From: Sporomusa malonica
Lineage (GTDB): Bacteria > Bacillota > Negativicutes > Sporomusales > Sporomusaceae
NCBI RefSeq assembly: GCF_900176355.1
Contig: NZ_FWXI01000005.1
Coordinates: 124,001 to 188,000 of the forward strand
Reading direction: 5' to 3'
DNA: 64,000 bases
This document shows positions 6,546 through 25,581 of this stretch, one piece after another. Under the pieces are notes generated by a model. It did no database searches. It saw nothing but the letters and a program-made list of their open reading frames with translations, and had not been told where the DNA came from. A program made the position numbers and the translations under genes. The first letter of the stretch is position 1. The number at the start of each line of letters is the position of its first letter.

Positions 6546-7868
6546 CTAATGTAGACGCATATAGAAGTTAGCGAGGAAGGCCAAGCTGACAAGCCACATA
6601 ATGAGACTGACTTCTTTGCCTCTGCCGGACAATACTTTTACAAAGGTGTAGCTAACAAAACCAAAGGCAAAACCGTTGGCAATACTGAAAGTCAAAGGCA
6701 TCATAATAATAGTCATAAAAGCTGGAAACCCATCGGTAAAGTCAGCAAAGCTTACATGGACGATCTCAGCCATCATCAGTGCTCCTACCAGAATCAGGGC
6801 CGGTGCCGTAGCAAAGCCGGGCACCAAACCGATTAGTGGAGCAAACAACAGGGAAACAACAAACAAGCCGGCCACTGTCAGGGCTGTCAAACCGGTTTTA
6901 CCGCCTTCGGCAATACCAGCGGCACTTTCTATATATGAGGTTACCGTGGAGGTGCCAAAAATAGCACTGGTAAGCGTTCCTACCGCGTCGGTGGTCAAGG
7001 CCTTGTCGAGATTTTCGATATCACCTTTGTCATTCATCAGTTTGGCCTTACGGGTCAGGCCAATGAGTGTTCCCATGTTGTCAAAGAGTTCCACAATGGT
7101 AAAGGTAAAGATAATGGAGAATATACCGAATTGCCAGGCACCCATCAGGTCTAACTGCATAAAGGTAGGTGCCATACTGGGAATATTAAAGCTAATAATA
7201 TCATTTAACCCTTTAGGAGCCGGCACAACACCGAAAATCATTCCTAAAATAGTGGTGGTTATGATCCCAATGAGTATAGAACCTTTAACATTTCTGGCCA
7301 TGAGAACGGCGGTCAGAATCAAGCCAAAACAGGCCAATAACGGTTCTTTATCGATTAAGTGACCTACTGTCACAAATGTTGCTTTATCTGCAATAATGAT
7401 GCCAGCATTTTTTAGCCCAATAAAAGCGATAAACAAACCGATACCTACGCCGATGGCGCATTTTAAGTTCATCGGCACAGACTTGATAATGGCCTGCCGA
7501 ATACCGCCAATGGTTAAGATCAGGAACAAAATACCGGAGAAAAATACCGCTCCCAGAGCAACCTGCCAGGAAAGGTGCAGCACTCCTACTACATAGTAGG
7601 CAAAGAAAGCATTTAGTCCCATGCCAGGTGCTACGGCAATAGGGAAGTTGGCCCACACAGCCATAAGGGTTGTTGCTAAAGCGGTGGCCCATATGGTAGA
7701 AGCAATGGCCGCTTCTTTGGGAATTCCCGCATCTGCCAAAATGTTGGGGTTGACAAAGATGATGTAGGCTAAGGCCACAAAGGTGGTCAAGCCTGCCAGC
7801 ATTTCCGTCTTGACATCGGTTTGTTTTTGACTGAGTTTAAACATCCGGTCGAGTATACCTTGGTCCAT
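6546..7868 (-). CDS. NCS2-family adenine/guanine/hypoxanthine permease (AzgA/PbuG type)
   Basis: A 440-residue membrane protein of the AzgA/PbuG/AdePQ branch of purine permeases. The N-terminal FKLSQKQTDVKTEMLAGLTTF segment, the NPNILADAGIP stretch near residue 40 and the GMGLNAFFAY motif near residue 80 are characteristic. TSYIESAAGIAEGG in the middle is another family hallmark. It has an AAGGAGGAG ribosome binding site. It is the second gene of the operon, after ygeX, and directly precedes adenine deaminase, which fits import of adenine or hypoxanthine. A truncated copy of the structured intergenic repeat lies in the leader between ygeX and this gene. Confidence 0.94.
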   Translation of the reverse strand: MDQGILDRMFKLSQKQTDVKTEMLAGLTTFVALAYIIFVNPNILADAGIPKEAAIASTIWATALATTLMAVWANFPIAVAPGMGLNAFFAYYVVGVLHLSWQVALGAVFFSGILFLILTIGGIRQAIIKSVPMNLKCAIGVGIGLFIAFIGLKNAGIIIADKATFVTVGHLIDKEPLLACFGLILTAVLMARNVKGSILIGIITTTILGMIFGVVPAPKGLNDIISFNIPSMAPTFMQLDLMGAWQFGIFSIIFTFTIVELFDNMGTLIGLTRKAKLMNDKGDIENLDKALTTDAVGTLTSAIFGTSTVTSYIESAAGIAEGGKTGLTALTVAGLFVVSLLFAPLIGLVPGFATAPALILVGALMMAEIVHVSFADFTDGFPAFMTIIMMPLTFSIANGFAFGFVSYTFVKVLSGRGKEVSLIMWLVSLAFLANFYMRLH

Positions 7869-17045: not shown

Positions 17046-18866
17046 CTATTTTTTCGTCTGAACTGTGTCTTTGCCAGTGCGACCGGGATATGCGCCTTCT
17101 TCCCTGCTGCCTAATAGACCCTTATGAATGGCGGCGACGAAGTCGCCTTCGGCAATGACATTGTCGAGTACACCTTCGATGCCGTCAACGATTTGTGCTG
17201 CATAATGATCGGCTTGTTCAGTTGGTGTGATGTTGGCATGGCCAAAGAAACGAAAGCCGTCCTGAACTGCACGGAGTGTATCAACCTTAGCCGGAACCGA
17301 GATGGGTCCTCCGGAATAAGCTTCATCGGTGGACGCAATCGAAATGGCATCCACGCCAAGCGACATGGCCAGACAGGCGTGCAGTGTGGTGGTCATGGAT
17401 GATTGAACTCGGTCTTCGGTATGGGTTAGGAAGCCGATGGGTGCGCCCGGCCATATGGGTGCGTTGATGATGTTTCGAAGAGCATAGATTTTGGCCGCAT
17501 TAAAGTTGATGTAGTTATCGTCCATGAGGTCGTTGATCATGACTTCTGGTGAATAGGCGAATAACGGTTGCAGAATGGGTCTTGCCCCCAATTTGATAGC
17601 CAAGTCAGCTACGATTAACATACCGGCAAAGGCTTTATGTGCTGGTACACCTGCCAGTTCTTCATTGGTAACAATATCAAACGGCAGTTTATATTTTTGG
17701 GCATATTTTATGGCATGATAGCCATCAACCGTCATACGTTCTGGATCAGTACCAGCACCAAGTGCTCCATAGCATATGTTAATTTTAGTCAAGTCAGCGC
17801 CGATTTTTCCGGCCAAGACAACTGTCTCAGGGGTATTTAGACCACGATGAGCCCGGATTTGCCAGAGTGTTGATTTTTCCAATGCCATCTGTATACGGTT
17901 AAGATTAGCTGGGGTCATAACGGTGCCATCTTCCTGGTGGGTTAGGAAACCATCAAGGAAGCCCTCTGTTCTAGCGCCCCAGGATGGATCAAAGTGTACC
18001 ACGCCGTCAGCACCCCAGGCTTCACTGGCAAGGATATGGGCAATGTCCATAAACGGACAGCCTGTTCCATATTGATTAAACACAAGTGGCTTTTTTCTAG
18101 TATGTTGTAGTTTGACAACCGACATCCGCGCTTTTGTTTCTTCAAGATATTTTTCTAATCCAACTACTTCGCCTTTTGTAAACCGTCTGGTTTTAGGATG
18201 CAGCTCACCTGTATTATAAAATTTCTGTGGTAATTCACTGCAAATCCCAGGGTAATATTTGTCTAGATCGCCATTACCCAGGCGATCACGCCAACGTTCG
18301 ACATCCCAGTACTCATCGCGGACGCGTCCGCGTTCAACACCGGATGAGGTCTTATCTTTTACCCAGTCCAAGATGAGATTTGACACTTTATCAAGCTTAC
18401 TTCCGATGTTAGGTGAAACATAGTGATAATCATAATCGGCTGTCATATCTGTCTTTTTCTTCTTGGTACGGTTCAAATCCGGTTTATATTCGCGTCCTTC
18501 AACAAAACAGATGACTTCTTCTACGGTTGTTCCAGGACCGAATCCAGCGTCAAATCCAAGTTCTGCCGCCAATTCTGGGCGAATAGCCATTCCGCCGATG
18601 CCAATTTTAACCCGCTCTCTTGCACCGGCTGCATCAGTGAGGTCAATAAACCGGGCTAAAAGTTCTCCTACCCCATAGCCAAGTGTTCGGCTTAAGAGTA
18701 GTGTTTCGACATCCTGGTGGCGGAGGATTTGCTGGACGATTTCTTCGGCAGACAAATCCGGCTGCAGTAATATAGCCTGGTGTCCTGCTTGTTCTAAGCC
18801 TCTGGCTATCATTTTAAGACCGATGTCATGTACTGGATCAATAGGGGCCAATAGTACTTTTTTCAT
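17046..18866 (-). CDS. B12-binding domain fused to an aminomutase-like barrel (single-chain mutase, substrate unknown)
   Basis: A 606-residue protein with two parts. Residues 1-125 form a cobalamin-binding Rossmann domain: DPVHDIG (10-16) supplies the His that would replace the lower axial ligand, SRTLGYG (59-65) and ELGFDAGFGPG (102-112) follow, the last almost identical in pattern to the beta subunit of lysine 5,6-aminomutase. Residues about 255-580 look like a TIM barrel with WGARTEGF (296-303) and a LAGVPAHKAFAG region recalling the alpha subunit of the same enzyme. The domain order (B12 first) differs from ornithine 4,5-aminomutase, and the position that carries the PLP lysine in KamE, 11 residues after the His, is Leu24 here. 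It therefore probably performs an AdoB12 rearrangement without the usual PLP link, or takes its PLP elsewhere. It has a good GAGGTG site and follows a 79-residue gene by 13 bases. The substrate is unknown. Confidence 0.8.
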   Translation of the reverse strand: MKKVLLAPIDPVHDIGLKMIARGLEQAGHQAILLQPDLSAEEIVQQILRHQDVETLLLSRTLGYGVGELLARFIDLTDAAGARERVKIGIGGMAIRPELAAELGFDAGFGPGTTVEEVICFVEGREYKPDLNRTKKKKTDMTADYDYHYVSPNIGSKLDKVSNLILDWVKDKTSSGVERGRVRDEYWDVERWRDRLGNGDLDKYYPGICSELPQKFYNTGELHPKTRRFTKGEVVGLEKYLEETKARMSVVKLQHTRKKPLVFNQYGTGCPFMDIAHILASEAWGADGVVHFDPSWGARTEGFLDGFLTHQEDGTVMTPANLNRIQMALEKSTLWQIRAHRGLNTPETVVLAGKIGADLTKINICYGALGAGTDPERMTVDGYHAIKYAQKYKLPFDIVTNEELAGVPAHKAFAGMLIVADLAIKLGARPILQPLFAYSPEVMINDLMDDNYINFNAAKIYALRNIINAPIWPGAPIGFLTHTEDRVQSSMTTTLHACLAMSLGVDAISIASTDEAYSGGPISVPAKVDTLRAVQDGFRFFGHANITPTEQADHYAAQIVDGIEGVLDNVIAEGDFVAAIHKGLLGSREEGAYPGRTGKDTVQTKK

Positions 18867-18879
18867 GAAAGATGCACCT

Positions 18880-19119
18880 CTACTTCCGTTCAGCGTCGGG
18901 GATAATCCAACTGTATTTGTCAGCTGGTCGGTGGATATATGCTCTTCCCCTTACTCGGATTCCAGGACCCATATGCTGAGCAAACACCACGTCAACATCA
19001 GTAAGACCCCATTGTTTGAGGAGTCCAAGCATGAGACTACGTCCCTGCTGTTCATTATCGCAAACAAAAAAAGTTTCTACATCAAGGGCATCCATAACTT
19101 GCTCTAACGGCTGAATCAT
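18880..19119 (-). CDS. 79-residue protein preceding the mutase, possible small subunit
   Basis: A short soluble protein, alpha/beta in appearance (VETFFVCDNEQQGRSLMLGLL then VDVVFAQHMGPGIRVRGRAYI). It is translated from a strong AAGGAGGGAAAAT site and ends 13 bases before the mutase start, so the two are almost certainly co-translated partners. Ornithine 4,5-aminomutase also has a separate small subunit, but I see no clear sequence match and this one is shorter. It could stabilise the mutase or help load the cofactor. No family recognised. Confidence 0.75.
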   Translation of the reverse strand: MIQPLEQVMDALDVETFFVCDNEQQGRSLMLGLLKQWGLTDVDVVFAQHMGPGIRVRGRAYIHRPADKYSWIIPDAERK

Positions 19120-19145
19120 ATTTTCCCTCCTTGTTGGATAATAAG

Positions 19146-19200
19146 AAAAGACTTGGCTTGTGCCAAGTCCTTCAGGGACGCCGGCAGAAGCCTTAGTCGT
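19146..19200 (+). repeat. Structured intergenic repeat, copy E (diverged)
   Basis: GACTTGGCTTGTGCCAAGTC, a hairpin, followed by GGGACGCCGGCAGAAGCC parallels the first two modules of copy A with several substitutions, some of which compensate within the stem. The third module is missing. Confidence 0.6.
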
Positions 19201-19240
19201 TCTTATGTCAACAGAATTGCGTTATAAATTCTGGTAGACT

Positions 19241-19272
19241 AAAGAAGGTGATACCAAGTATCACCTTCTTTA
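19241..19272 (-). terminator. Terminator between permease and small-subunit genes
   Basis: AAAGAAGGTGATAC and GTATCACCTTCTTT form a perfect 14-bp stem with a three-base loop. On the minus strand it lies 30 bases beyond the permease stop, so the permease gene and the mutase pair may be separate transcripts. Confidence 0.7.
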
Positions 19273-19303
19273 TGTCAAGGTATTCTCTATTAGTTTGCCC
19301 TTA

Positions 19304-20683
19304 TTATAGGAGGAATATTGCAACAATCGTCGTTGCTGCAAAGCCCAATATAACTGGTATAAAGTTTTTGCGTGCAAGGTCAATGGGGTTAACACCAGTG
19401 ATGGCGGCAACCGGGATTAATCCCCAGGGAATAATGGTCCCGCCCCCTGTCCACACACCGGCGATCTGGCCAAGCGCAGCTAGTGTAGCTGTATCAAAAC
19501 CTGCTTTTCCGAAGGTTGCGGCTACGCTACCGACTAATGGCAGCGGTGAGAACCCTGAACCATCCAGACCGACAACGATCCCTGTTGCCAGGCTGACAAG
19601 AGCGACAAATACTTTATTTAGGGGCACTGTCTGTGATAATGCCACACCAAAATCTTCAAGGAAACCGGTGGCGGCTTTGTCGCTTAGAATGCTTTGGGCA
19701 AGCTCTCCTTTACCGAGAAAGAAGAAACCACCAATAATTACGACAGGCGCAAAGATTTTGATGCCAAACATAAATCCGTCCCGCACGAAGTCGGTTATTT
19801 TCTCTAAGCCTTCCCAGCCGTATTTGAGCATGGTGCCAACTGCAAGAATGAGTACAGCCGTACCACCTAAAAGAGCAGTAGCATCCCCGCCTCTAAGCTG
19901 TAATACCCACATGGCTGCTACGTCAAGGGCGAATGCCAGCGGGGTTACTACAGCCAGGAAATACGATACTCCGTTGATCTCTCTTTTTATTTCTTTGCCC
20001 ACAATAGCTTCGCGTTCAGCGGCCAAAGCTTCGGGGTTTTTACGCATATCTTTTTTTATAATAATATACGCAGCAATGGTGGTTACAAGACCCATAGTCA
20101 GCGCTAGTGGTATGCTGGCTTGAATAACTGGGCTCGGGTTTGCAAAGCCGGCAGCCTTGGCTGTAATGGTCGGCGCGCCTTGAATAATGTAGTCTGTAGA
20201 CAAAGCAATGCCGTGACCAAAAAGGTTCATCGCCATAGCGGCACCAATGGCCGGTAGGCCAGCTCGTACTGCAACCGGGAACATAATGGCGCCTATGAGT
20301 GCTGTCGCAGGCGACGGCCAGAAAAACCAGGAAGCCAGCATCATGGCAATACCAATAACCCAATAGGCAACATCGGCGTTAACCATAAGCCGCGCGGCTG
20401 GACTCATAACCAAGTAGTCGGCCCCGGTTTCACTTAGTAGTTTTGACAGGGCTACGATGAGGGAGATAATAACAATTATCCCCCAGAACTCGTTGCCTGC
20501 TACAATTAATGCGTTATACACGCTGGTAACGCCGCCAAGGAAGCTTTTCTTAAACAGCCAGCCGACTGTAAGTAAGCCTAAGAGGCACGGTATCAAAGGG
20601 TCTTTACGGAACCCCATAACGATGATTACCACACCGACCCAGAATAGAAACAGCCAGTGAGCGGTCGTCAAAGTTACCGACAT
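19304..20683 (-). CDS. Multi-span permease of the ion-transporter type, substrate unknown
   Basis: A 459-residue integral membrane protein with about 11-12 hydrophobic segments. The repeated organisation, with re-entrant-looking stretches such as WPSPATALIGAIMFPV (about 118) and GLDGSGFSPLPLVGS (about 378), resembles secondary carriers of the ion transporter superfamily (GntP, CitMHS, ArsB/NhaD types). I cannot name the family with certainty. It overlaps the stop of the flavoprotein gene by 10 bases, with GGAGGCGG inside that gene, so the two are translationally coupled. In this cluster it most likely imports the amino acid or organic acid that the cluster degrades. Confidence 0.8.
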   Translation of the reverse strand: MSVTLTTAHWLFLFWVGVVIIVMGFRKDPLIPCLLGLLTVGWLFKKSFLGGVTSVYNALIVAGNEFWGIIVIISLIVALSKLLSETGADYLVMSPAARLMVNADVAYWVIGIAMMLASWFFWPSPATALIGAIMFPVAVRAGLPAIGAAMAMNLFGHGIALSTDYIIQGAPTITAKAAGFANPSPVIQASIPLALTMGLVTTIAAYIIIKKDMRKNPEALAAEREAIVGKEIKREINGVSYFLAVVTPLAFALDVAAMWVLQLRGGDATALLGGTAVLILAVGTMLKYGWEGLEKITDFVRDGFMFGIKIFAPVVIIGGFFFLGKGELAQSILSDKAATGFLEDFGVALSQTVPLNKVFVALVSLATGIVVGLDGSGFSPLPLVGSVAATFGKAGFDTATLAALGQIAGVWTGGGTIIPWGLIPVAAITGVNPIDLARKNFIPVILGFAATTIVAIFLL

Positions 20684-21975
20684 GCCGCCGCCTCCTTAGC
20701 AGAGCGGGCATAGATGCTGGTTAAGCCGGCTTTCTCGACACGCTCTTTAATCGCCTGGACATCGGTGGTATATAAGCCTTTTTCCTGCATGCGCTTAAAG
20801 TATTGCGCGCCCGAAAAGGTGTATTTTAGTTTCAGACCATCTTCGGTTTGCATCTGTTCTCTGACATGGGCAATAGCGTCGCCGGTAGCCAATGTTTCAG
20901 AGAGAACTAGCAGTTGTTTGGCAAATGCATGGCGAACGGCGTTATGTCCAGCCAGAGTGCCTGTGACAATCGCTTCGGTGTGTCCAACCAAGAGTCCCGC
21001 TTTTTCACCACCGCAGAATAGGTTATCAACACCATTCACTTTAAGCGCGTTGTCACGCGGTGAAAGTGCGGTAAAACGCATGGAGTTTCCTATTCCGCCT
21101 GCATATGGATCTTCATAACGGGCGTTTTCGAAACCAGGAATTTTCCGGAGCTTGTCCAGTGGATAGTAGGGCGACATAAGCTTAGCATGACCTGTATCAA
21201 GCAGGATTATATTGTCAGCAAACTCTTTTAGCGCGTATTGCTGGCAAGCTTTTATTGATAGTGATTCGGCTTTTTTTAGGTCTTCAGGGATGGGCACAAC
21301 AACAACACCTTTGCTGTCAAGTTCTTTCGCAATTTGCTCTGACAACGATTCCTTATGCAGTTTACATGAGCCGCTCATAGCGGCATAGGAACCGTCAGCT
21401 TTGCGCCCCATCATTTCTTGTACGCCTGCTCGGGCCGCCACGCTGATTCGTGGACCAAACGAAGGGCAGCGAATAATGCACATAACGCAGCCATTGCCAT
21501 ATTTACTACAATGGCCTTGCGGGCCAGCGGTGCCAGTGGCTTCGACAAAGACGTCGCCATAAACTTCATCGTCTTTGTCTGTAATAACTGACTTGATTTT
21601 TGTGCCATCCATTGTGATGTCTCGGACACGCGCCATTAGATTGTATTTGATGCCAAGGCGGTCTAGAACACGTCTAACGGCTGGCTCAATCTTGGCTACA
21701 TCGTACAAGGTAACATGTTTGTGGCCAGGGAATTCTATATTCCGATGCCGGGCAGCCTCTTCAACAGCGTCAAATAAATCACCGCCGCCCATAGCATAAG
21801 CTTCTTCCGTGGCAGTGAACCGGCCGTTATTGCGCATAATACCGCCAACTAATCCAGTGCCAAGAAGCATATCAGTGCGCTCTAACAAAATTACTTCGTC
21901 AGCACCGGCTTTTTTGGCGGCTATGGCTGCGCCACAGCCGGCCCAGCCGCCACCAATGACAACTATTCTAGCCAT
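20674..21975 (-). CDS. GidA-like FAD-dependent oxidoreductase with four clustered cysteines
   Basis: A 433-residue flavoprotein. Its N-terminus has the dinucleotide-binding GGGWAGCGAA (8-17) and an acidic residue after the second strand (LLERTD). Residues 156-170 carry Cys-x6-Cys-x2-Cys-x3-Cys (HCSKYGNGCVMCIIRCPSFG), an unusual insertion that suggests an iron-sulphur cluster. The C-terminal VGHTEAIVTGTLAGHNAVR is like the FAD-contact region of the GidA/TrmFO family. A close paralogue at 51398-52678 keeps all four cysteines and is paired with a PyrK-like reductase subunit. Here it is coupled to the permease gene. It presumably oxidises an amine or hydroxy intermediate. The substrate is unknown. 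Confidence 0.85.
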   Translation of the reverse strand: MARIVVIGGGWAGCGAAIAAKKAGADEVILLERTDMLLGTGLVGGIMRNNGRFTATEEAYAMGGGDLFDAVEEAARHRNIEFPGHKHVTLYDVAKIEPAVRRVLDRLGIKYNLMARVRDITMDGTKIKSVITDKDDEVYGDVFVEATGTAGPQGHCSKYGNGCVMCIIRCPSFGPRISVAARAGVQEMMGRKADGSYAAMSGSCKLHKESLSEQIAKELDSKGVVVVPIPEDLKKAESLSIKACQQYALKEFADNIILLDTGHAKLMSPYYPLDKLRKIPGFENARYEDPYAGGIGNSMRFTALSPRDNALKVNGVDNLFCGGEKAGLLVGHTEAIVTGTLAGHNAVRHAFAKQLLVLSETLATGDAIAHVREQMQTEDGLKLKYTFSGAQYFKRMQEKGLYTTDVQAIKERVEKAGLTSIYARSAKEAAACR

Positions 21976-22001
21976 AGAGATTCCTCCCTTGTTTTCCTGT
22001 T

Positions 22002-22080
22002 AGAAAGTATAACTTTCGCCTGGATAAGGGCAACATCGGCTTCCGCTTTCGCTAAGGCTCGGCGCAAGCCGTGTTTTCTT
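22002..22080 (-). repeat. Structured intergenic repeat, copy C
   Basis: Read on the minus strand it contains ACACGGCTTGCGCCGAGCC, TTAGCGAAAGCGGAAGCC, GATGTTGCCCTTATCC and GAAAGTTATACTTTC, nearly identical to copies A and D. It lies between the PLP enzyme and flavoprotein genes. Confidence 0.85.
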
Positions 22081-22084
22081 TATA

Positions 22085-23554
22085 TTAAGCGATGCCAGCG
22101 TAACGGCAGGTGATCTCAATCAGGCGGACTAAGCATTGAACTGCATAACGGGTAACATCTTCTAACAGGCGGTTTTTACTGTCAACAGTGGCAAGGCCTG
22201 GGGAAATATAAATATTGCCGTCATAAGCGACAGTCGGTATTACGCCCATTTGTGCCATACCTGTTTGGAAGATATTGCTGCCGGCATACATGTCTTCAAT
22301 CGAGAAAATCGGAATACCTAGTTCGCCACCTTCCCAAGTTTTCTCGTAGTTAACCTCAACAGCGGTCGAGTTATACGATTTGGAGATAATGATTCCATCT
22401 TTAAGACGGGCAGGAAGATTAATCTTTGCAAACTCTTCTTTAACTATTTTTTCGAGAACATCAACTGGGTCGGTCAAGACTTGCGGATTATCGCGCAGTA
22501 CTTTAAGAGCTTGGATTTGGCTTAAGAGTGCTTCTTTACCAGGGTCAAAACCTACATAAGCAGCCTTACCATAAGCAGCTGTAGTACCATAGCGGTCACC
22601 ATGCATACCCATGGCGCGACGGATGGGTACCATGTATTCTTCTTTGCCAATGATGAGACCGCTGGTAGCTGCGCCGGTGGCTTTGTCCATGCTGTAGATA
22701 ATAACATCTGCGCCAGTTTTGATTGGGTTGCAGCCTACGAACGGCAGACCCCAGGCATTATCAATGACATAAGGGATATCATAGGAATGCGCTAAATCCG
22801 CAAGATATTTTTGCAGAATCGGAGTGCCTTCTTCGTCTTTTACGGCATAGCCATAGCCTGGAGTTTCATAGCCAAGGCCGGTAATACCGGTTAAGAACGG
22901 AGCGTGAATGCTCGCATGCTCGCTTAAAATATCGAGAGATTCCTCAGGATCAACACCGGTTAAGAGTGGAACAGGATGATATTTGATGCCATGTACGTCA
23001 TATCGTGCACCAGCTAATGGTACGATTATCGTGTCAAGGTTATTTTGGCGTTTACCGTAGAAACCAAGTTCGCCCGCAGTGGTGCCTCGATCGCCAAATA
23101 TGTCTTTAAACCGTGCCGGAAATGGACGACCATAAGCGCCTTGGTGATGTAGATGTTTTTCATAAGGTGCAATATAGCGAGCACGATAGTTATCACCACG
23201 TCCCATCATTGGAGGGCTGAATAAGCTGTCAAATGTTACCCAAAGACCTGCTTCACAAGTCGATATTGGGCAGGCGTCATATTCGTCGCCGTAAACAGAC
23301 TTAACCAATTCACGAATGTCGTCAACCAGTTTAGCCAAAGGAATTACTTCTTTTGCACCATGCTCGCTGTACTCCATGATATCATCGCGAAGGGGGGCTG
23401 GACAGCCGGAGATAGCACCGGTTAAACCAAATTTGCCTTTGAGTTCTTTAGGAATGTTGATTTCATCTGCCGCTTTACGAGCGTCTGCGTAAATATTGGA
23501 AATGTTTTGTTGAAGAGCGCGGTACATCTGGAATTTAAATTTGTGTGTTGACAT
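22085..23554 (-). CDS. Fold-type I PLP-dependent enzyme, substrate unknown
   Basis: A 489-residue protein of the aspartate aminotransferase superfamily. VIDNAWG (263-269) gives the aspartate that holds the pyridine nitrogen and SMDKATGAA (288-296) gives the likely Schiff-base lysine, K291; the arrangement is closer to the SelA/SepCysS-like branch than to ordinary aminotransferases. The N-terminal 120 residues contain three cysteines (C51, C95, C100) in GLTGAISGCPAP and DACPISTCEAG. It has a GGGAGG site and lies 62 bases after ridA. A lyase or eliminase that releases a reactive enamine would explain the neighbouring RidA. The substrate is unknown and may be an amino acid acted on before or after the B12 mutase. 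Confidence 0.82.
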   Translation of the reverse strand: MSTHKFKFQMYRALQQNISNIYADARKAADEINIPKELKGKFGLTGAISGCPAPLRDDIMEYSEHGAKEVIPLAKLVDDIRELVKSVYGDEYDACPISTCEAGLWVTFDSLFSPPMMGRGDNYRARYIAPYEKHLHHQGAYGRPFPARFKDIFGDRGTTAGELGFYGKRQNNLDTIIVPLAGARYDVHGIKYHPVPLLTGVDPEESLDILSEHASIHAPFLTGITGLGYETPGYGYAVKDEEGTPILQKYLADLAHSYDIPYVIDNAWGLPFVGCNPIKTGADVIIYSMDKATGAATSGLIIGKEEYMVPIRRAMGMHGDRYGTTAAYGKAAYVGFDPGKEALLSQIQALKVLRDNPQVLTDPVDVLEKIVKEEFAKINLPARLKDGIIISKSYNSTAVEVNYEKTWEGGELGIPIFSIEDMYAGSNIFQTGMAQMGVIPTVAYDGNIYISPGLATVDSKNRLLEDVTRYAVQCLVRLIEITCRYAGIA

Positions 23555-23616
23555 TTGGTTGCCTCCCTTTTAGTATGTGTGAATTAGTATTGAATGTGAT
23601 TTGTTGACGGCAGTAG

Positions 23617-24075
23617 CTACTTCACCTTAATAATCATTTCTACTTCTACGGCGGCGTTAAGCGGCAGCTCAGCTACACCGACAGCAGAACGCGCGTGTTC
23701 GCCCGCTTTGCCAAAAATTGAGCCAACTAGTTCTGATGCGCCGTTAATTACCTTAGGCTGGTCATAGAACTCTGGTGCACTGTTGACAAAGCCGACGATT
23801 TTTATCACTTTTTCAATATTGTCCAGCGAACCAATTTGCCCTTTGATGGCTGCCAAACAGTTGATAGCACAGGTTTTGGCAGCTTCATACCCCTCTTCCA
23901 CTGTTAATTCTTTACCAAGCTTGCCTTTGAATTTTAATTCGCCAGCAATAAACGGGATCTGCCCGGAGGTGTACACATAGTTGCCATCTTTAACAGCAGC
24001 AACATAAGCTGCCACGGGTTTGGGAGCATCGGGCACGGTAATGTCCAGTTCTTTCAATTTTGCTTCGTAGCTCAA
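23617..24075 (-). CDS. RidA-family enamine/imine deaminase
   Basis: A 152-residue member of the RidA/YjgF/UK114 family, slightly longer than the usual 125-130. The C-terminal HARSAVGVAELPLNAAVEVE contains the arginine that binds the substrate carboxylate in active RidA proteins. These enzymes hydrolyse 2-aminoacrylate-type enamines and imines released by PLP enzymes to keto acids and ammonia. The start is TTG at 24075, with GGAGGG upstream. It lies between a PLP enzyme gene and a conserved small gene, so a task in this pathway is more likely than general housekeeping. Confidence 0.9.
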   Translation of the reverse strand: MSYEAKLKELDITVPDAPKPVAAYVAAVKDGNYVYTSGQIPFIAGELKFKGKLGKELTVEEGYEAAKTCAINCLAAIKGQIGSLDNIEKVIKIVGFVNSAPEFYDQPKVINGASELVGSIFGKAGEHARSAVGVAELPLNAAVEVEMIIKVK

Positions 24076-24101
24076 ACATATCCCTCCATTATTTTATGGT
24101 G

Positions 24102-24524
24102 CTAACCAATGGTGACCTCGTCCGCAACAGATAAACTAAACTCTTTTCCGGTAGTTTTGCTGCCTGTCATGATAATGTTTAGGTGATTGGGCATATGCGT
24201 TTCATCATACCCTGCAATTTTACCGAGTATTTTTTTACCGATTTTGACTTCATCGCCAACGACTATGACCCCGCCCTGGTTGATTTCGAAAAAACCGACA
24301 TAAGCAATATTATTGACTTTGCTTCCAGGCTGGGCTTCTTCATCGGTTATAATTAATTCATGAATCTCCGTTTGCCGTAACGCACGCGAAGGAGGCTTAA
24401 TGAGTTCCAGCCCACGGTTTTCGTATACTCCATCCAAAACAACTACTAGCCTGCCAATAACAGGTTGTTTGGCATAATAGGGGTTAAAGGAACCAAACAT
24501 TTTGCGGGCATAAGGGTCGGACAC
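24102..24524 (-). CDS. Small conserved protein, first gene of the mutase cluster
   Basis: A 140-residue soluble beta-rich protein (GRLVVVLDGVYENRGLELIKP early, GGVIVVGDEVKIGKKILGKIAGYDETHMPNH later). I believe it belongs to a conserved domain of unknown function found beside B12/PLP catabolic genes in anaerobes (DUF6917-like), but this is from memory and not certain. The GTG start at 24524 has AAGG eight bases upstream. It would be the first gene of the unit leading into ridA and the PLP enzyme. The glycine-rich, SH3-like strand pattern could mean a cofactor-binding or regulatory subunit. Confidence 0.65.
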   Translation of the reverse strand: MSDPYARKMFGSFNPYYAKQPVIGRLVVVLDGVYENRGLELIKPPSRALRQTEIHELIITDEEAQPGSKVNNIAYVGFFEINQGGVIVVGDEVKIGKKILGKIAGYDETHMPNHLNIIMTGSKTTGKEFSLSVADEVTIG

Positions 24525-24675: not shown

Positions 24676-25581
24676 CTATACGATTATAGCACCTTGAGTG
24701 TCAATCTGTAAAAGTTGATATCTCGCATCCACCTTATGTATGTTAAATGCTTTGACCATTGCCTGCCCTATCTCATCAGAATTATCGGCGGTAAAGGCCA
24801 ACAGACACGGTCCAGCGCCGCTCAGCGCTGCGCCCAATGCCCCAGCTTGACGGGCTGCCGCCAGAACCTGCGCCATACCAGGAATAAGTTGCTCACGGTA
24901 CGGCTGATGCAGCCTATCTTCCAGAGCATGAAGTAACAGCTTTAACTCGCCAGTGCACAGCGCCCCAATTAAGAGCGCTGTACGACTGACATTAAATACT
25001 GCATCTGCAAAGGGTACTGAATCAGGAAGCACCTTACGAGCTGCTTTGGTGGACAGGTTAAATTCAGGAATTACAGCCACCATGGAAAAGTTTTTAGGTG
25101 GCAGGAAGCGTAGATATTTAGCAGTACCGCTGTCCATAATGCTTACAGTGATACCGCCAAAGATGGCTGGTGCAACATTGTCAGGATGGCCTTCAATGGC
25201 TGTCGCCATATCTAAAATTTCTTCTTTGGTAAGTCGATTGCCAGTAAGCTCATTGGCCGCCACTAGCCCGCCGACTATAGCAGCCGCGCTACTCCCTAGC
25301 CCCCGCGCCAGCGGAATATTGTTGACCATGTTAAGTTTAATGCCGTTAGCCGGATAACCAGTTTTGGTTAACACCATTTGAATTGCCTTAACCACAACAT
25401 TAGATGCATCAGCCGGTATTGCCCCAGCGCCCTCACCGGCTACCTCCAGTGATATCCCGCCTTGATCACTTAAAGTAAGTTCTAGGTCGTTATATATTGT
25501 ACATGCTATACCGACCGCATCAAACCCCGGGCCGCAATTGGCGGTTGTTCCCGGCACGCGGATTTTTACGGTGTTTGCCAT
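24676..25581 (-). CDS. thrB: Homoserine kinase
   Basis: Phosphorylates L-homoserine with ATP, the step before threonine synthase. The 301-residue GHMP kinase has the ATP loop PLARGLGSSAAA near residue 90 and a C-terminal GAALSGAGPCLLAF. It follows hom by 19 bases in an ACT protein-hom-thrB operon and ends at a bidirectional terminator. The ribosome binding site is GGTGGAG. Threonine synthase is not in the window. Confidence 0.96.
   Translation of the reverse strand: MANTVKIRVPGTTANCGPGFDAVGIACTIYNDLELTLSDQGGISLEVAGEGAGAIPADASNVVVKAIQMVLTKTGYPANGIKLNMVNNIPLARGLGSSAAAIVGGLVAANELTGNRLTKEEILDMATAIEGHPDNVAPAIFGGITVSIMDSGTAKYLRFLPPKNFSMVAVIPEFNLSTKAARKVLPDSVPFADAVFNVSRTALLIGALCTGELKLLLHALEDRLHQPYREQLIPGMAQVLAAARQAGALGAALSGAGPCLLAFTADNSDEIGQAMVKAFNIHKVDARYQLLQIDTQGAIIV

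Follow-up and report, generated by a model that had tools for sequence, protein, structure and literature searches.

A seven-gene operon in Sporomusa malonica

The window analyzed here is a 64,000 nt stretch of the Sporomusa malonica genome (NCBI RefSeq assembly GCF_900176355.1, contig NZ_FWXI01000005.1, positions 124,001 to 188,000), and the system under study is an operon of seven genes for a predicted adenosylcobalamin (AdoCbl)-dependent mutase, a 79-residue companion, a membrane carrier, a flavoprotein, a pyridoxal phosphate (PLP) enzyme, a RidA-type deaminase and a DUF6917 protein (Table 1). The seven open reading frames (ORFs) are adjacent, tightly packed and all on the minus strand, at 17046-24524, precisely where a first-pass annotation of the sequence had placed them; from the mutase gene to the DUF6917 gene, the intergenic gaps are 13, 184, -10, 109, 62 and 26 bases. 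It is reasonably probable, judging from sequence and predicted structure, that the operon encodes an anaerobic amino-acid pathway built around a new branch of the AdoCbl aminomutase superfamily.

Table 1. Features of the operon (positions within the window; aa, amino acids)
Feature	Position	Strand	Length	Remarks
Mutase, AdoCbl-dependent (predicted)	17046..18866	-	606 aa	N-terminal B12 Rossmann domain, residues ~1-125; possible OraS/KamD-N-like helical segment, ~150-190 (weak evidence); TIM barrel, ~250-545
Companion ORF	18880..19119	-	79 aa	likely KamE/OraE dimerization domain as a separate subunit
Hairpin of 12 pairs with T-rich tail	19146..19173	-		between carrier and 79-residue gene; possible attenuator or terminator; consensus scan only
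Membrane carrier	19304..20683	-	459 aa	name read from hydrophobic sequence
Flavin adenine dinucleotide (FAD) enzyme with conserved Cys set	20674..21975	-	433 aa	probably Fe-S; proposed amine dehydrogenase
Fold-type I PLP enzyme	22085..23554	-	489 aa	SelA/SepCysS/DgaE-like fold
RidA-type enamine/imine deaminase	23617..24075	-	152 aa
DUF6917 protein	24102..24524	-	140 aa	small conserved protein
Promoter-like site, TTTACA-18-TATAAT	24683..24712	-		TG before second hexamer; upstream of DUF6917 gene; consensus scan only

Co-occurrence across genomes and loci

Within a set of 60 genomes, comprising the window's own genome and relatives from the same genus to the same class, 16 encode the mutase, 17 the PLP enzyme and 17 the DUF6917 protein, and the three sets agree in 59: all three proteins are present in 16 genomes and none of them in 43, while the single exception is a 58%-complete genome that lacks the mutase only. 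DUF6917 is absent from all 14 control genomes. In one same-genus genome (G007), counted among the 16, the mutase (locus L023, C4:726562-728371) is split over two reading frames, in pieces that overlap, due to a frameshift or an assembly error.

Beyond this set, a scan of named genomes yielded 118 confirmed mutase relatives. Among the 80 of these that were listed, the hosts include Sporomusa, a Pelosinus metagenome-assembled genome, Lucifera, Candidatus Formimonas, Desulfotomaculum-type sulfate reducers, heliobacteria, Tepidanaerobacter, Thermovorax, Fervidicola, Halobacteroidaceae and Ignavibacteria. An even draw across the phylum found the mutase in 39 of 398 genomes and 33 of 267 genera. The 80 named-genome loci and 40 phylum-draw stretches, less 18 duplicates (identical to another locus over a 600-base mutase stretch), make up the 102 loci examined below. 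The 40 stretches stem from 42 matching places, two of which are the window's own, and the window's locus stands outside the 102; some genomes contribute two copies, and many contigs are short, making some absences a matter of truncation.

Across these loci, the 79-residue gene accompanies the mutase at 100 (no more than 60 bases from the predicted start of the mutase at 97, further away at 3), the PLP enzyme at 95, a KamB-like gene at 84, DUF6917 at 82, the flavoprotein at 70, an FCD-type regulator at 65 (counted from ORF clustering alone), RidA at 55, related carriers at 34 and a diaminopimelate (DAP) dehydrogenase at 6. At the 73 loci flanked by over 6 kb in each direction, the corresponding numbers are 72 for the 79-residue gene, 72 for the PLP enzyme, 66 for DUF6917, 62 for the KamB-like gene and 54 for the flavoprotein, and the mutase, 79-residue, PLP, KamB-like and DUF6917 genes occur together at 60 of them. 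Co-occurrence across genomes, which the first-pass annotation had proposed as a check, is thus borne out in the 60 genomes and at the 102 loci, and it argues that the grouping of these genes is not due to chance.

The mutase as a distant aminomutase

Pfam recognizes a single domain in the mutase, the B12-binding domain at residues 11-117 (49.5 bits, cut-off 32.1); the body of the protein outside it has no Pfam match at E ≤ 0.1. An AlphaFold2 model built on 58 sequences (mean predicted local distance difference test score, pLDDT, of 89.7) has as its top Foldseek match the alpha subunit of lysine 5,6-aminomutase (KamD; E 1e-18, 15% identity), followed by ornithine 4,5-aminomutase (OraE; E 2e-11) and glutamate mutase (E 3e-11). 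Profile comparisons agree. In particular, hhalign aligns the mutase to a KamD profile from ten same-class genomes over 391 columns (E 2.6e-5, probability 75), and its B12 domain matches KamE with an E of 2e-18 and OraE with an E of 3e-11, sharing 34% identity over 87 residues with the KamE of its own genome. In the mutase, a KamE-like B12 domain thus comes first and is fused to a barrel resembling that of KamD. Having homology both to the barrel and to the B12 Rossmann domain of the AdoCbl class III aminomutases, it is, on predicted structure and profiles, a very remote member of the lysine/ornithine aminomutase superfamily. A first impression by eye, that the mutase is simply glutamate-mutase-like, was rejected when Foldseek placed lysine 5,6-aminomutase first; the likeness to glutamate mutase E is one of fold, as that family, whose barrel model we take to be in Pfam, does not appear in the mutase's Pfam list at E ≤ 0.1.

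The distance to characterized enzymes is large. Of the paired lysine 5,6-aminomutase models (NF052384/NF052385), the beta model scores 41.7 bits against a cut-off of 280, through the B12 domain only, and the alpha model has no match at E ≤ 0.1; the true KamD and KamE of the same genome score 890 and 391. On the OraE model NF040743, the score is 23.7 bits where the cut-off is 800. Between the B12 domain and the barrel, a helical segment aligns to a three-sequence OraS profile (hhalign E 0.0022, probability 13).

The 79-residue protein has no Pfam match at E ≤ 0.1; it aligns to OraE residues 518-573, the domain that precedes the B12 domain (hhalign E 0.0018, probability 15), and to KamE residues 31-58, the stretch before its B12 domain (E 0.038, probability 1.4), compared to control profiles with E-values of 0.17 and 0.54 over 16 and 14 columns. 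From these modest alignments, it is likely the dimerization domain of the aminomutase family, here a separate subunit. Its identification as OraS was considered and rejected, as the OraS profile matches inside the mutase and the 79-residue protein matches another domain. Further, the KamB-like partner gene, which the first-pass annotation had not foreseen, likely encodes an ATPase that reactivates the mutase: on the KamB model (cut-off 210), the KamB-like proteins score 203 in the window's genome, 205 at L101, 184 at L098 and 254 at L064, and the genome's true KamB scores 336. Overall, a known set of domains appears in a new arrangement, firmly so for the large pieces and suggestively for the small ones.

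Changes at the PLP site

All 102 mutases retain the His that serves as cobalt ligand; two positions ahead of it, the Asp of the DxHxxG motif is replaced by Pro in every one of them. The column of the PLP-binding Lys, occupied by Lys in 11 of 11 KamE and 5 of 5 OraE sequences, is a gap in every mutase. In the barrel, numbered by the KamD of the window's genome as translated, R183, T184, Q187, S188, S237 and R267 are fixed in 10 of 10 KamD and 5 of 5 OraE sequences and replaced in 102 of 102 mutases; Y262, R273 and E410 are kept in all 102. We take R183, Q187, S188 and S237 to be PLP-site residues, several of the listed positions to contact PLP, the substrate or the adenosyl group, the retained Glu to bind the adenosyl ribose, and Y262 to stack on PLP. 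Two of the presumed PLP-site positions carry Asp/Asn and Arg in the mutases; the invariant arginine stands where a barrel serine presumably binds the phosphate of PLP.

By alignment, the mutase has therefore lost the PLP-binding Lys and several presumed PLP-site residues, and it is, as far as these positions indicate, a PLP-free, rearranged branch of the lysine 5,6-aminomutase family. A PLP-assisted amino shift is unlikely, because the mutase is without the PLP lysine of its family.

Comparison to known systems

The first-pass annotation held that the operon matches neither the lysine, the ornithine nor the glutamate mutase operons. Its gene content does differ from that of the lysine 5,6-aminomutase cluster; the mutase itself turns out to be remotely related to the lysine and ornithine enzymes. 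With lysine 5,6-aminomutase (KamD/KamE and KamB) it shares the B12 domain, the barrel fold, the cobalt His and the KamB-like ATPase. It differs in lacking the PLP lysine and the presumed PLP-site residues, in its 15% identity in the fold match, in the fusion of the B12 domain to the barrel and in the separate 79-residue protein; moreover, the window proteins include no Kdd or Kce match. The window's genome has a separate lysine 5,6-aminomutase fermentation cluster, on a contig other than those of the operon and of the KamB-like gene (L111, C32:70000-84000), with Kdd, KamB, a sigma-54-type regulator (named by eye), KamD, KamE and Kce.

D-ornithine 4,5-aminomutase (OraS/OraE) belongs to the same superfamily, and clostridial ornithine fermentation follows the same three-step logic of a mutase, an amine oxidation by a dehydrogenase and a PLP enzyme; in contrast, neither Ord nor OrtAB is among the best 25 matches listed for each window protein, and OraE has the PLP lysine that the mutase is without. 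Glutamate mutase (GlmS/GlmE), which we take to be PLP-free, also combines a B12 Rossmann domain with a barrel and is a remote fold match. That match is weaker than the one to lysine 5,6-aminomutase, and the reactivase is KamB-like and not of the MutL type presumed for glutamate mutase.

The PLP enzyme, flavoprotein and other partners

The PLP enzyme has no Pfam match above a cut-off. Its structure model (pLDDT 88.3) has SelA, Cap15 and SepCysS as its nearest fold neighbors, with DgaE (D-glucosaminate-6-phosphate ammonia-lyase) at rank 41, and this SelA-type fold is common to several chemistries. It departs from SelA and DgaE in its 13-14% identity, in a score of 38.1 bits on the DgaE-family model TIGR01437 (cut-off 385.3) and in His134, His136 and His137, invariant in all 93 ORFs of its cluster. 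An Asp290-Lys291 pair is also kept in 93 of 93, and Lys291 is the likely PLP lysine. Structure prediction, suggested beforehand for both enzymes, thus gave a lysine 5,6-aminomutase-like fold for the mutase and a SelA-like fold for the PLP enzyme; in the libraries searched, neither is a close ortholog of a characterized enzyme, in keeping with the first-pass view.

The flavoprotein has a GIDA-type FAD domain (112.6 bits, cut-off 22.1). All 78 ORFs of its cluster, a number that takes in second copies from some loci, conserve seven Cys residues, among them a C-x6-C-x2-C-x3-C set, supporting its early description as Fe-S-like; it probably carries an Fe-S cluster. PyrK-like reductase genes, named from matches below curated cut-offs, lie near the flavoprotein gene at 9 loci (cluster c40, on the opposite strand) and 10 loci (cluster c38). 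At L056, L057, L060, L061, L086, L162, L166, L168 and L169, a second flavoprotein copy directly follows the PyrK-like gene, downstream of the KamB-like gene.

RidA has two Pfam matches (69.6 bits against a cut-off of 27.3 and 82.1 bits against 35) that make it a Rid family domain protein and a predicted enamine/imine deaminase; the subfamily model TIGR00004 of NCBIfam gives 53.9 bits, below its cut-off of 106.25. DUF6917 corresponds to PF21891 (161.2 bits, cut-off 27), and for the carrier Pfam gives no match at E ≤ 0.1.

Proposed pathway and alternatives

The gene set most likely lets these anaerobic bacteria break down an amino acid, and the operon is probably catabolic. We infer the reaction types, the order of the steps and their direction as follows. 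The carrier would take up the amino acid; the earlier suggestion of a diamine as substrate finds no support. The mutase, in the manner of glutamate mutase and without PLP, would carry out a direct 1,2-radical rearrangement on an amino acid that bears a carboxylate; its invariant arginine is located at the position of the serine presumed to bind the PLP phosphate. An amino group would then be oxidized by the FAD/Fe-S protein and the resulting imine hydrolyzed by RidA; in some Bacteroidota, the oxidation would instead fall to a nicotinamide adenine dinucleotide (NAD)-dependent DAP dehydrogenase. Finally, the SelA-fold PLP enzyme would eliminate or cleave the product.

Several observations weigh against this interpretation. 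The assignment of the PLP-contacting residues in the known enzymes follows published structures and is background to the present analysis. The links of the helical segment and of the 79-residue protein to known domains come from pairwise hhalign E-values of about 0.002, with probabilities of 13 and 15, and the OraS-typical motif TS-x-x-V-x-R is present in only 48 of 102 mutases. The KamB-like gene of the window's genome lies on another contig and scores below its cut-off. The catabolic direction is read from the carriers and from the FCD-type regulators, and the window operon has no such regulator. In addition, 26 loci have neither the flavoprotein nor a DAP dehydrogenase in the fetched stretch and RidA is found at only 55, so the oxidizing enzymes and RidA may be optional.

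It is quite improbable that the mutase still depends on PLP held by another lysine, for example Lys18, which is located five residues after the cobalt ligand and is invariant in the 58-sequence alignment; the retention of R273 and of the Tyr presumed to stack on PLP would fit such an enzyme, but the usual PLP-Lys stretch is missing and R183, Q187, S188 and S237 are replaced in all 102 mutases. A carbon-skeleton route that starts from a common dicarboxylic amino acid, for example glutamate, and in which the PLP enzyme and the dehydrogenase degrade the branched amino acid made by the mutase, is likewise very doubtful. Glutamate mutase E ranks third among the structural relatives, and the Asp/Asn and Arg at two presumed PLP-site positions are in line with it; yet the Pfam list of the mutase holds no glutamate mutase E model, and the matches listed for the eight window proteins scanned, the other loci not having been searched for these, include no methylaspartate ammonia-lyase or MutL-type protein.

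A biosynthetic operon, or one tied to the cell envelope or sporulation, is an unlikely explanation that draws on the surroundings of the loci: a DacF-like gene at 16 of 102 (c22) and a PBP2-like gene at 13 (c29), both named from sequence and located somewhere in the fetched stretch, EamA-type exporter genes (named by eye) adjoining some loci, and thrB with hom- and spoIVA-like genes (the latter two by eye) beside the window's operon. Against it stand the operon's presence in Ignavibacteria, presumably non-sporulating, its patchy spread through the phylum, the FCD regulators at 65 loci, and hom/thrB homologs at a single locus of the 102. A catabolic amino-acid pathway is still the preferred interpretation. 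Searches of an open-access library, whose scope excludes most subscription journals, turned up no description of this system and nothing useful on aminomutase clusters, DUF6917, KamB or DAP degradation. To our knowledge, few kinds of AdoCbl-dependent rearrangement are known. A widespread branch that discarded PLP would show a radical enzyme family switching between PLP-assisted amino shifts and PLP-free chemistry, and would put a name to a step in the fermentations of anaerobes that include acetogens, sulfate reducers and heliobacteria.

Diaminopimelate as a candidate substrate

The leading guess for the substrate, tentative and thinly evidenced, is DAP or a similar amino dicarboxylate. Bacterial cell walls have DAP as their signature amino acid, and if the operon degrades it, this would go some way toward explaining the oxygen-free recycling of cell-wall material. 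The more specific proposal, that the operon performs anaerobic DAP degradation and that no earlier case is known of a PLP-free carbon-skeleton mutase evolving from the aminomutases, is unlikely. One hint comes from six loci in Bacteroidota, L101, L102 and L104-L107 (the records of L104 and L105 are titled only Bacteroidetes, those of the other four Ignavibacteria), which have a DAP dehydrogenase and lack both the flavoprotein and RidA; across the 102 loci, dehydrogenase and flavoprotein never occur together. In all six genomes, the dehydrogenase exceeds the TIGR01921 cut-off (297-333 bits versus 180.6) and is the only copy to do so; it is closest to 3wb9, which we take to be a Symbiobacterium-type enzyme. 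DapF is above its cut-off elsewhere in each of these genomes, although DapF should be superfluous wherever the dehydrogenase route serves biosynthesis.

At L098, a homolog of the DAP epimerase DapF (6707-7567; TIGR00652, 228.6 bits, cut-off 114.65) overlaps the predicted DUF6917 ORF by four bases, and both positions of the presumed catalytic Cys residues are Ser in the alignment, with Cys at both in the second copy in that genome. An S66 LD-carboxypeptidase follows the KamB-like gene at L104, with a 52%-identical homolog at L106, and L052 carries a DHDPS-family protein and Opp genes. The window's genome has two ORFs with both DapF domain halves (C37:68568-69365 and C28:83440-84228).

Several results count against DAP as the substrate. 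None of the six Bacteroidota genomes has a protein that reaches the cut-off of the DapL (LL-DAP aminotransferase) model; this leaves them without an identified route to LL-DAP and weakens the argument that their dehydrogenase is non-biosynthetic. All six loci are of the Bacteroidota type, and the replacement of the flavoprotein may have been a single event. DAP-related neighbors are few: besides the 6 dehydrogenases, the 102 loci hold 2 DapF homologs (one of which retains both Cys and is encoded on the opposite strand at a distance of about 9 kb), 2 LD-carboxypeptidases, 1 DHDPS-family protein and 3 Opp-type substrate-binding proteins. No DAP-related gene is among the window's seven, and the DAP-related families may serve other substrates.

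Neighboring genes and transcription signals

A NIF3-like protein is encoded near the cluster at 5 of 102 loci (L074, L080, L090, L094 and L098), next to a membrane protein gene at L090, L094 and L098; the one copy scanned has no Pfam match, and the two genes are possibly another accessory pair. In the window, hom and thrB were considered as pathway members and rejected, the single locus with homologs being that of Sporomusa acidovorans. A tRNA-Pro gene comes after the mutase gene. Consensus scans of the region found 19 hairpins with T-tails against 11.0 expected and 25 promoter-like sites against 18.9 expected. One further promoter-like site (19138-19166) overlaps the strong hairpin ahead of the 79-residue gene, and the last two genes, for the 79-residue protein and the mutase, may be transcribed separately.

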